This document shows positions 721-62,799 of a stretch of 64,000 bases of DNA, piece by piece. The stretch comes from Nereocystis luetkeana (lineage: Eukaryota; Sar; Phaeophyceae; Laminariales; Laminariaceae). The notes under the pieces were generated by a model. The model had not been told where the DNA came from. It did no database searches and worked only from the letters and a program-made list of their open reading frames with translations. The position numbers were made by a program, and so were the translations under genes. The stretch's first letter is position 1. Each line of letters opens with the position of its first letter. The DNA is taken from contig JARUPZ010000019.1 of the NCBI GenBank assembly GCA_031213475.1, forward strand, positions 6,535,906-6,599,905, read 5' to 3'.

Positions 721-970
721 TATTTTTTTTAAAAAATAGCACCTAAATCGTCCACGACTGACTCTCAACCTCATACCTGGTATGCCAGGATATGACACAC
801 CCACAGCGCCATCCGCACGGCCCCGCCTACCGAACCACAGTACGAGTGTTCACCACTAGTTCGAGATTTGGTCTGACTGGCTTAGGGTCAGGAGAAGGCT
901 TGCTTTGATTGGCTCAAGGTCGGGGTTGGGGTTAGGCTTAGTTATATTTGTCTCGTATACTGCTGTGGTG

Positions 971-1313
971 TGTTGCGAGGCTTAGATTGGGTAGGCGATT
1001 GGTTAACCTTTTACCTTTGGCCCAACGGACTAAGACCTCTAACAAATGGCGTCGTCGGCAGGACACGGGTCGTTGGTCGTGAGTTCGAATCTCACGTCCA
1101 CCATGAAATCGCTCTTTAAAAGAAAAGTGAGTTTCCTCATGTCAAGAATCTGAAAATGGCTTCTGGATCCCCAGAAATTGGAACCACGTGTGGTGGCGCG
1201 TCGACCCGTAAAAATCCGGTCCGTTCCAGGGGGGGGGATAATTATGAGGCTTAGATTGGGTAGGCGATTGGTTAACCTTGTACCTTTAGCCCAACGGACT
1301 AAGACCTCTAACA
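971..1313 (+). mobile_element. miniature LTR retroelement (TRIM-A), copy 1, fossil
   Basis: Two direct repeats of about 74 bp (971-1044 and about 1240-1313) begin TGTTRYGAGGC and end TCTAACA. After the left repeat comes a primer-binding-site-like word, TGGCGTCGTCGGCAGG; before the right one lies a G-rich purine tract. These are the end signals of an LTR retroelement, in a unit too small to code. A possible 4-bp target repeat GGTG flanks it. The internal part starts with a tRNA-like T-arm, GTGAGTTCGAATCTCAC. The element is old. Confidence 0.65.
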
Positions 1314-61400: not shown

Positions 61401-62799
61401 ATGCGAACATGTTTTGCGGGGGGGGGACCATATACACTTGGATTGAGTATAGTAAAAGGGTTGAAAATTGAAGAAAAAAAAAATCGGCCCTGACACGAAG
61501 AGTGCAAATGACGATTAAACGCGAAGCAATGCGCCACTTGCTCACCACACCCAGACGCCGACGTGGGCGCTGCTGCTGAGTTTGGGGACGATTTATTGTA
61601 CTGCGTACTCTGTGTGTATATATATGTATGCTACCTGGTACCAGGTACTCCTTTTGCAGGGTAATGATACATGCGGGAAAGACGACCTTCGATAGTTCTG
61701 GTGCCCTGCTTTTTTTCTTCTCCCGTGCGGTGCTGCCTGCACGTATTATACGACGTAACACTTTTCACATTTATAACTTTTGTACTATTCACATGTATGT
61801 AGATATATGTGTAACGTTTTATCGTATACATTACATTACGGGAGACCATGGTAAATGGGACCAAATATTGTTCATTTAAATAGCGACATTGACAGGTTTT
61901 TGTGTACACCGTAGGTCATGGTCCCCCGTAATAGTTTTTTTTCATCTCAAAGAATATTATTTCGACTCGTAAGTAAAAAAAAAAGACACACCTCGGCGAG
62001 ATGGAATACTTGATCGAAACTCGTATTTTGCACGGTGCATGTGATCCCGCGATCGCGCGTGCTGCTGGGTGCTTACGACTTTAAGTGATGATATTACGGG
62101 GGACCATAGTGAATAGGACCGAATATTGTTAGTAAAAAAAATGAAATATATAGTTTTTTGTGTGTACTGTAGGTCCTATTTAATATGGACCACAGGGGTC
62201 AAGTGTTTTTCACCCCCTATTTCCGCAGTGTTTGTTCAGTTTGCCTTCCTTATCTTCCTGTTCTTCCTTTTCCTCCAAAGTTTTTCTTGTGTGCATGTCT
62301 GGTTAACCTCCCCCCTTCCCAGTAGGATGCTTCAACTCATTGAAGCTGTCATCCATATGCAAGTCCGCCTCAAAAGCGGTTCTAAGTAGGATGCAGCTCA
62401 CCCTTCATGCGACTCGCCAAACACCTCACGGCGCTCCGCGCTTGGTGCAAGCAATGTCTTCCTGGTCGGTGAAAACTCGACGCTGCTCCGTCCCGGCATT
62501 GTAGGGATGCGAGGGTCTATGGCCACAGCGACTACGGCCATGCGTGATACTGAGTACCCCTCCCCCCCCAAGTAGAATGCCTCTCATAATGCAATGAAAT
62601 CATCATGAAAAAGAAAAACATATATTAATAGGGACTGACTCCTACTGCATTGGCGGCAACCAACGGCGTATCGATTCCCATTTTCGTGTGCTGTACGCTG
62701 ATTGGTCGACAGGTGGGTGTGGAGGACATCACGGACGCCATCGAGGCGTTCGAAGACGACGTACAGTCGGTCGACATGACCACCATGAACAGGCTCTGA
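55448..62799 (+). CDS. EEF1B: translation elongation factor 1B, guanine-exchange subunit (eEF1B beta type)
   Basis: Five exons: 55448-55603, 58407-58528, 59934-60009, 60525-60626, 62713-62799; 180 residues. The start has the context CACCATGGCC. Residues 53-62 are the acidic patch (DDLFDDDDE); residues 94-180 are the exchange domain that reloads eEF1A with GTP during translation: [44 protein letters not shown], ending [11 protein letters not shown]. Intron 2 starts with GC (AG|GCGAGA) and must be spliced there to keep the frame. The penultimate residue, a catalytic Lys in yeast, is Arg here. The usual N-terminal glutathione-transferase-like domain is missing: only about 50 residues precede the acidic patch, against over 100 in plant and animal forms. 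Either a short form or an unseen first exon. Confidence 0.92.
56100..56445 (+). mobile_element. tRNA-derived SINE (family S), full copy 2
   Basis: Starts GGTCGCCCCGGTGATTCAAG, T-arm CTGGGTTCGAGCCCCAG, same body and A-rich joint as 27424-27784. Lies in intron 1 of EF1B in sense orientation. Confidence 0.85.
57238..57322. mobile_element. palindromic MITE family A, copy 14, diverged
   Basis: ATACGGGGAACCATAG ... GGTTCCCCGTAG: the A-for-G change in ACC is mirrored in the other arm. Confidence 0.65.
58630..58662. repeat. AT dinucleotide repeat
   Basis: About 15 TA units in intron 2 of EF1B. Confidence 0.85.
58667..58770 (-). repeat. dispersed repeat D, short inverted copy
   Basis: Reverse complement of TCAGGACGGACACTGGGTGT and GAAG-TGCTGGGTA from the ends of 13127-13555 and 30606-31133. 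Confidence 0.6.
59168..59412. mobile_element. hAT-like non-autonomous element
   Basis: Left end CAGGGTGTGTGTTACGAACC, right end inverse of CAGTGTTGTGAAGCGAAAAC. CAG-GTGT ends followed by AACCGAAA are hAT-like, but an 8-bp target repeat was not found. Interior made of CGGTTTTT/AAAAACCG words. Confidence 0.5.
59563..59655 (-). repeat. SINE family S, 3' fragment
   Basis: GGTAACTCAGATCCGGGGTC, the inverse of the SINE body, plus a C run of about 15. Confidence 0.5.
59808..59878. repeat. TTG trinucleotide repeat
   Basis: About 22 units, in the intron just before EF1B exon 3. Confidence 0.85.
60706..60768 (+). mobile_element. LINE 3' end fragment
   Basis: GCTCCGTCTCGAAAGGGATG, GTGGTCAATGGTCAAATG; joined directly to a SINE at 60776. 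Confidence 0.6.
60776..60913 (+). mobile_element. C-tailed SINE, 5'-truncated
   Basis: GCAATGTCTGCCTGGTCGG ... GAGTACA and a C run of about 15, in intron 4 of EF1B. Confidence 0.75.
61836..61931. mobile_element. palindromic MITE family A, copy 15, right arm shortened
   Basis: TTACGGGAGACCATGG ... GTCATGGTCCCCCGTAA; the right arm lacks about 10 bp of the usual palindrome. Confidence 0.7.
62094..62197. mobile_element. palindromic MITE family A, copy 16, right end decayed
   Basis: TA then TTACGGGGGACCATAG on the left; on the right GGTCCTATTTAATATGG and then diverged sequence. Confidence 0.7.
62328..62571 (+). mobile_element. C-tailed SINE, long copy
   Basis: GAAGCTGTCATCCATATGCA, CGCCTCAAAAGCGGTTCT, CTGGTCGGTGAAAACTCG, ending with a short C-rich tail 140 bp before EF1B exon 5. 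Confidence 0.75.

Follow-up and report, generated by a model that had tools for sequence, protein, structure and literature searches.

Excision footprints are usually studied singly. Sleeping Beauty and Frog Prince, two transposons of the Tc1/mariner type, are described as leaving the footprint C(A/T)GTA by repair of 3' overhangs, and the overhangs of Tc1/mariner elements are stated as 2 or 3 nt (PMC3878927; this and the other papers are cited here from part of their text). In cells, the footprints of mariner and Sleeping Beauty can vary (PMC3770610), and DNA transposon excisions in rice are messy, with 8/94 perfect (PMC4423477). Integration of mariner/Tc1 elements shows a palindromic AT-rich preference centred on TA (PMC5481204). 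For Ectocarpus, possibly a related host, 17 Mariner-Tc1 families with 11,912 copies are reported, and the words footprint and excision are absent from that paper's main text (PMC12477816). Among open-licence PMC papers, no footprint swarm was described in the titles or abstract openings of the matches listed, and among the matches listed for papers containing the letters TACCTGGTA or TACCAGGTA, none concerned footprints by its title or abstract opening.

The 64-kb stretch of Nereocystis luetkeana DNA analyzed here (the window) contains many copies of the word TACC(A/T)GGTA (TACCWGGTA). As in the footprints of Sleeping Beauty and Frog Prince (PMC3878927, in the part cited), the TA is duplicated and the word is a short palindrome with an A/T centre and the C(A/T)G grammar; unlike those footprints, the main class reads CC(A/T)GG, with 5 nt rather than 3 between the TAs, and there are 182,395 copies in one genome. 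The remark in the original prediction that it knew of no named repeat class with this form has to be tempered, since the form is that of the Tc1/mariner footprint C(A/T)GTA, two nucleotides longer here (PMC3878927). A 5-nt overhang would be without precedent in the parts of the published Tc1/mariner work compared, because the overhangs given there are 2 or 3 nt (PMC3878927); the main class has 5 nt between its TAs, and a second word class, TAC(A/T)GTA, has 3. Mos1, a mariner element, shares the TA target, the palindromic target bias and the staggered excision, but its stagger is 3 bp (PMC5481204). In contrast to the varied footprints of mariner and Sleeping Beauty in cells (PMC3770610) and the messy excision in rice (PMC4423477), a single 7-bp product dominates here; as in the rice work, a second copy of the locus served to identify the sites. 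From our analysis we regard these sites, called scars below, as probably a variant of the Tc1/mariner-type footprint, lengthened from 3 to 5 nt and exceptional in number.

Abundance and target preference of TACC(A/T)GGTA

Exact TACC(A/T)GGTA occurred 22 times in the window. Dinucleotide shuffles gave a mean of 0.45 and a maximum of 3, and 0 of 100 shuffles reached 22. A count by eye of about 22 and a chance expectation of about 0.5 in 64 kb had been given in the original prediction, and both agreed with these values; its 19 named positions were correct within 0 to 4 bases (775 is 774, 15548 is 15552, 53745 is 53747). When up to one mismatch was allowed, the window held 44 sites against 11.6 expected. 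With low-complexity words excluded, TACCWGGTA was the top-enriched 9-mer of the window under both order-2 and order-3 Markov expectations. Table 1 lists the sites and the related features.

Table 1. Positions in the window of TACC(A/T)GGTA sites, their variants and associated features
Feature	Positions	Strand	Evidence or remark
TACCTGGTA site	774..782		exact match; paralog at 3735 too diverged to judge
TACCTGGTA site	8378..8386		exact match
TACCAGGTA site	14211..14219		exact match
TACCTGGTA site	15552..15560		exact match
TACCAGGTA site	15744..15752		exact match
TACCTGGTA site	24236..24244		exact match
8-bp variant TACCAGGGTA at TA in MITE copy	24732..24741		exact 8-bp gap in 21/24 paralog alignments
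TACCTGGTA site	25709..25717		exact match
Tandem repeat, 77-bp unit	27008..27172	+	copy alignment; second copy with two putative scars, otherwise 2 substitutions
TACCAGGTA putative scar, 7-bp insertion at TA	27118..27126		exact 7-bp gap in adjoining tandem copy 27008-27084
TACCAGGTA putative scar, second 7-bp insertion at TA, same tandem copy as 27118	27143..27151		tandem-copy alignment
TACCAGGTA site	27346..27354		exact match
8-bp variant TACCCTGGTA	30260..30269		sequence match
Tandem double TACCAGGTACCTGGTA, two sites with one TA in common	32295..32310		exact matches at 32295 and 32302
TACCAGGTA site	32348..32356		exact match
TACCTGGTA site	33770..33778		exact match
TACCAGGTA putative scar, 7-bp insertion at TA within palindromic MITE	35836..35844		exact 7-bp gap in 15/18 paralog alignments
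TACTGTA (second word class), insertion of 5 bp at TA	37075..37081		exact 5-bp gap vs 4482-4678, TA kept there
TACCAGGTA putative scar, 7-bp insertion at TA	37113..37121		exact 7-bp gap vs L019
TACCAGGTA site in partial MITE	42118..42126		fits 7-bp insertion; adjoining 1-nt difference, classed OTHER, outside strict count
TACCTGGTA putative scar, 7-bp insertion at TA	43538..43546		exact 7-bp gap vs 4354-4526 (-)
TACCTGGTA site	53747..53755		exact match
Putative decayed tandem double TACCTGGCACCTGGTA	53912..53927		search with up to 1 mismatch
8-bp variant TACCAGGGTA	56081..56090		sequence match
TACCTGGTA site	56775..56783		exact match
Tandem double TACCTGGTACCAGGTA	61632..61647		exact matches at 61632 and 61639

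In the genome assembly (465 Mb; 465,085,209 bases in 1,987 contigs), TACCWGGTA was counted 182,395 times, about 1 per 2.55 kb, while the same word read backwards, used as the control, was counted 1,744 times. This is far above expectation, and the thousands of copies foreseen in the original prediction were an underestimate. When 20 contigs (C1-C20) were sampled with one 10-kb stretch each (2,500 of the bases were N), the sample contained 77 TACCWGGTA sites and 0 of the reversed word. By a crude open-frame proxy, which says little about the absence from exons noted in the original prediction, 29 of 126 sites (23%) lay in frames free of stops over 150 aa or more, as did 25% of all TAs.

We then analyzed the sequence around the sites, using 232 flanks from which those belonging to a neighbouring scar were left out. 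The base preferences were mirrored on both sides of the TA. At position -1, the frequencies of A, G and T were 0.47, 0.36 and 0.04 (A/G 0.83), against a background of 0.29, 0.31 and 0.19; position -6 had A at 0.48 (background 0.25), and position -7 had A/T at 0.80 (background 0.52). The chi-squared value was 60-70 at each of these three positions. Weaker biases were found at -2, -3 and -5, and frequencies beyond -9 were near background. The sites thus show a palindromic AT-rich target preference around TA of the Tc1/mariner kind.

Tandem doubles (TACCWGGTACCWGGTA) occurred 15,917 times in the genome, compared with 2 for the control and with about 2,633 if scars fell randomly on TAs. Each scar presents G-TA-Y as a site for a further insertion, so the target preference may account for part of the doubles, with a remainder of the excess beyond it.

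Insertions at TA in paralogous copies

Length polymorphism at TA was analyzed in paralogous copies within the same genome, under a strict filter in which the flanks had to match on both sides. The search space was 316,064 bases, consisting of the window and stretches L010-L037, of which L010-L013 were included because they hold doubles. A copy with matching flanks was available for 10 of the 126 TACCWGGTA sites, and at 7 of these 10 informative sites exactly 7 bp were missing at the TA in another copy. The other copy retained the TA in all seven cases, so that a duplicated TA flanks the insert. Five of the seven sites are in the window (27118, 27143, 35836, 37113 and 43538), and the others are L017:3808 and L031:7056. 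In addition, the tandem double at L011:1508 had a 14-bp gap in its paralog, which the counting window of the script scored as 13. Among other TANNNNNTA words, from which those with TATATA or the form TACCNGGTA had been excluded beforehand, a 7-bp gap was found at 6 of 168 informative sites (of 1,127); of these six, TACCTCGTA in L017 resembles a decayed scar and another adjoins a scar of the main class. These results support the footprint reading of the original prediction, and the 7-bp length polymorphism at TA that it proposed to look for between related species was found here between paralogs of one genome. The 7-bp insertions at TA were likewise visible when the alignments were inspected by eye.

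The strongest single case is the 77-bp tandem pair at 27008-27172, whose copies differ by 2 substitutions and two separate 7-bp insertions, each converting TA into TACCAGGTA. For the palindromic MITE around 35836, the alignments that did not show the exact gap had a gap of 6 bp (1) or were complex (2); since most MITE copies are free of the scar, the scarred copy has gained the 7 bp and the others have not lost them. At L031:7056, 7 bp were missing in 27 of 30 alignments, 1 had a related filled word and 2 were complex. At L017:3808, 7 bp were absent in one copy and 8 bp in another. The comparison at L017:9110 was complex, and L036:881 may be a chance site because its copies carry a mutated word in place of the 9-mer.

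Insertions of 8 bp at TA were also found. TACCAGGGTA was present 11,422 times in the genome (5,725+5,697; control 409, 195+214), and its T version, TACCTGGGTA, 1,578 times (780+798; control 362, 185+177), which gives an A:T ratio of about 9 to 1 after subtraction of the controls. At both of the 2 informative sites (of 11), the 8-bp form was an exact 8-bp insertion. Some TACCAGGGTA copies lie in a tandem array on contig C1 near 1.305-1.308 Mb, with a spacing of 528 bp; the copies of the 8-bp form are therefore not all separate events, and part of the 182,395 will likewise be copies within repeats.

The original prediction took near-matches to be decayed members. This fits one-transition forms such as TACCWGGCA and TACCWGGTG, whose excess is as expected from decay, but not TACCAGGGTA and TACCCTGGTA, which represent a separate 8-bp product; decay as the source of TACCAGGGTA was rejected on its number and on the exact 8-bp insertions. 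In 264 kb, single-base forms at eight fixed positions numbered 106 against 51.5 expected, and exact copies 99 against 2.4. The leading changes were the transitions T1C, A2G and C3T (19, 17 and 13, each 3.5-3.8 times expectation), with C4T not raised (3 against 4.3 expected). Decay is mostly by transitions, and a rough estimate of the mean divergence since scar formation is 6-7% per site. None of the 6 informative one-transition forms (of 66) had an exact 7-bp gap, nor did any of the 3 informative CCSGG forms. With 14 copies in 264 kb where about 1.7 are expected, TACCSGGTA is more common than decay would allow.

The second word class, TAC(A/T)GTA, has a form identical to the Sleeping Beauty footprint (PMC3878927, in the part cited). 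TACAGTA and TACTGTA occurred 24 times in the window (7.8 expected), and TAC(A/T)GTA 162,074 times in the genome against 54,742, a threefold excess. An exact 5-bp gap was found at 5 of 14 informative sites (of 127), compared with 4 of 136 (of 1,030) for control words. A plain TA remained in the other copy for only 2 of these 5 gaps (L011:2139 and window 37075), which makes the evidence for this class less firm. Before the TA, its flanks favour C (0.43), unlike those of the TACCWGGTA class, and this difference points to another transposase. TAC(A/T)GTA is likely a second, Sleeping Beauty-type footprint class in the same genome.

Proposed origin of the footprint and competing explanations

We consider it highly probable that excision of a TA-inserting cut-and-paste DNA transposon left TACC(A/T)GGTA as its footprint, formed by the joining of 5-nt CCAGG overhangs with the mismatch resolved to A or T. 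Insertion of such a transposon at TA would duplicate the TA. On excision, each element end would leave a 3' overhang of 5 nt (CCAGG) on the flank, and the two overhangs would pair at 4 of 5 positions around a central A.A mismatch. Simple end joining, as we infer it, would ligate the overhangs, and conversion of the mismatch to A or T would yield TA-CC(A/T)GG-TA, a gain of 7 bp. A one-base pairing slip, or a 6-nt cut at an end starting CCAGGG, would instead produce TA-CCAGGG-TA, a gain of 8 bp; CCAGG overhangs shifted by one would give CCAGGG on both strands. The end of Mos1 begins with CCAGG. The TAC(A/T)GTA excess would be explained by another element whose overhang is the 3-nt CAG, and this is the less well supported part of the scheme.

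The word itself has the palindromic form with an A/T centre, CCWGG. Its centre base is ambiguous because TACCAGGTA and TACCTGGTA are one duplex, and the 8-bp form breaks the tie: the large excess of TACCAGGGTA over TACCTGGGTA suggests that the joined overhang was CCAGG. Later growth of a G- or C-run in a finished scar would yield the two words equally, which the counts (11,422 against 1,578) do not show. The plain A.A mismatch gives no account of TACCSGGTA.

A footprint could also form from the usual 3-nt overhang, here CCA, by a one-base A.A overlap followed by fill-in. The Mos1 cut lies 3 bp within the repeat (PMC5481204), and CCA would be such an overhang; joining with no overlap would produce TACCATGGTA, which is indeed present (3 copies in 264 kb, where 0.39 are expected). 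However, TACCATGGTA is much scarcer than the main word, 316 kb holding 3 copies of it and 126 of TACCWGGTA. One mismatched base of overlap would also pair poorly, and the CCAGGG form is not predicted; we regard this route as rather improbable.

The 7-bp unit might instead have been inserted directly, never as part of a full element, for example through integration of short end stubs only by a transposase or as a templated repair insertion at TA. Such an origin would suit the very large number of scars and the finding of no resident element with matching ends in about 300 kb, but joining of two identical overhangs is what would produce both the palindrome, with its central mismatch, and the A bias of the 8-bp form. 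We know of no process that inserts short 7-bp units directly at TA, and we consider direct insertion distinctly unlikely.

That TACCWGGTA is a protein-binding or regulatory site under selection has very little probability: the word is palindromic and has an extended flank preference, as binding sites have, but the paralogs differ by a discrete 7-bp gain at TA rather than by gradual substitution, and the sites lie in MITEs and a fold-back repeat, at the density and with the number of tandem doubles given above, on which grounds this explanation was rejected. Dispersal as part of one or a few short repeats containing the 9-mer, which a few copies inside repeats such as the 528-bp-spaced TACCAGGGTA array would fit, was also rejected and is hardly credible, as the 22 window sites have differing 30-base flanks and paralogs lack the 9-mer at most informative sites.

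Search for a parent element and significance of the putative scars

No element with a longer inverted repeat was found among TACCNGG...CCNGGTA pairs within 6 kb in 276 kb, when the inner 25 nt were compared. Of the 155 inverted pairs of 16-mers flanked by TA in 316 kb, those starting with CCNGG, CAG or CTG included no candidate for the CCWGG scars, and the CCWGG-started inverted pairs (in L022 and L027) were tandem scars matching one another. In 304 kb, 132 half-sites were followed by a sequence other than TA, where an order-4 model predicts about 109; the surplus lay in TG, CA and GT and is decay plus the 8-bp form. As there is little half-site excess, resident copies with a TACCWGG end must be few. 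The claim of the original prediction that the element itself has gone fits the finding of no TACCWGG-ended element in about 300 kb, a scan that is below the whole genome and short of proof. If so, the footprints would far outnumber resident elements, an unusual state.

Profile searches of the genome gave 0 matches for Pfam DDE_3 (a profile that matched 3 of 14 controls) and 0 for Pfam Transposase_1 (which matched no control either). Pfam DDE_1, which we take to be the domain of pogo-type transposases, gave 28 matches, the best at 3.4e-28. Around six of the 28 loci (L038-L043, about 1.5 kb on each side), there was no TA-flanked inverted 14-mer starting CCWGG (at least 11 matching, at least 300 bp apart), and an 8.5-kb stretch around one DDE_1 locus contained no inverted 16-mer starting CCWGG. 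No link between DDE_1 and the scars was seen in the loci examined, and some DDE_1 loci may be host genes rather than elements. The DDE_1 domains would be a likeness to pogo-type elements such as Passer; Passer, however, is described as leaving footprints of 0-4 bp (PMC9976928, in part).

Eight ORFs of the window had no match in Pfam, and the window had no match in Rfam at the gathering threshold. The ORF at 22280-22840 presumably encodes a retroelement protein, for which 400 relatives were found; no viral contig encoding a relative of it was found. Tandem doubles were seen in 9 stretches of viral contigs; with the matched sites counted in, each stretch had 2-3 single sites, and these were taken as chance.

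The footprints in this genome would form a genome-wide record of past jumps that is readable without the element, and would permit past transpositions to be counted and target preference and decay to be followed. They point to a staggered cut that, at 5 nt, exceeds the 2 or 3 nt given for Tc1/mariner (PMC3878927, in the part cited). The 8-bp by-product may allow the overhang base to be deduced from genome sequence alone. The combination of TA-word excess with paralogous empty sites revealed the likely second class, and is applicable to any genome.

Well over 100,000 sites of this genome may have been entered and then vacated by a transposase that is specific for TA, cuts with a 5-nt stagger and resides almost nowhere, through a hit-and-run or programmed insertion/excision cycle; we offer this tentatively, as a possible but doubtful account. 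As a speculation, a haploid phase of the life cycle in which end joining is favoured would fit many scars and few elements. If the hit-and-run account is true, insertion would nearly always have been followed by departure, and, simple repeats apart, few short words of the genome would be as over-represented as the scars left behind.

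Scars in a palindromic MITE family and other repeats

We found in the window a family of palindromic MITEs that are about 117 bp long and have termini near TATTACGGGGGACCATAG. Several separate scars lie near the AT-rich centre of this family, at 35836 and 24732 in the window and at L031:7056 in another stretch of the genome. The two arms of a long fold-back repeat in stretch L017 are distinguished by 7-bp and 8-bp scars. A dispersed repeat containing CATACGACTACGGCCATGCATGAGAT, from which a long C run often continues, had no match in Rfam at the gathering threshold.

Repeats and a candidate element in the window and elsewhere in the genome
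Feature	Location	Remark
Palindromic MITE copies	window 7035-7151, 7617-7733, 16649-16765, 23904-24020, 31205-31321, 41986-42102, 54909-55025, 62090-62206	
Dispersed repeat containing CATACGACTACGGCCATGCATGAGAT	window 12003-12140, 31657-31794, 42376-42513, 60774-60911	
Long fold-back repeat	L017:3400-5250	arms built of GCTGCCTACAGACAGC-type units
TA-flanked 212-bp stretch, inverted ends CAGTGGGC...	L021:8695-8906	13/16 end positions matching
Tandem array carrying TACCAGGGTA	G000:C1 1305185-1308362	528-bp spacing

Further over-represented words

The words TACAGCAGT/ACTGCTGTA occur at 9 places in the window (for example 6680, 8061 and 9152), where ACAGCAGT is over-represented (22 versus 2.9 expected). 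In a 264-kb sample comprising the window and L014-L033, TACCSGGTA was found 14 times versus about 1.7 expected, and TACCGGTA 17 times versus 3.8 expected. Using sites with a second genomic copy matching on both flanks (informative sites), we found no exact 8-bp gap at the single informative site among 27 for the TACAGCAGT/ACTGCTGTA class, and an exact gap at 0 of 3 informative sites for TACCSGGTA; the TACCGGTA check had zero informative sites.

Putative mobile-element loci and a candidate source

Two loci with DDE_1 domain matches, L038 and L040, have in common blocks of 395 bp (99.7% identical) and 288 bp (100%), between which L040 lacks about 1.3 kb. The ORF at 22280-22840 (+) of the window had 400 relatives at E <= 0.001 in a protein collection search and is presumably the end of an LTR-retroelement polyprotein. 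The TA-flanked stretch in L021 is possibly a Tc1-like MITE and could be a source of the TAC(A/T)GTA class.
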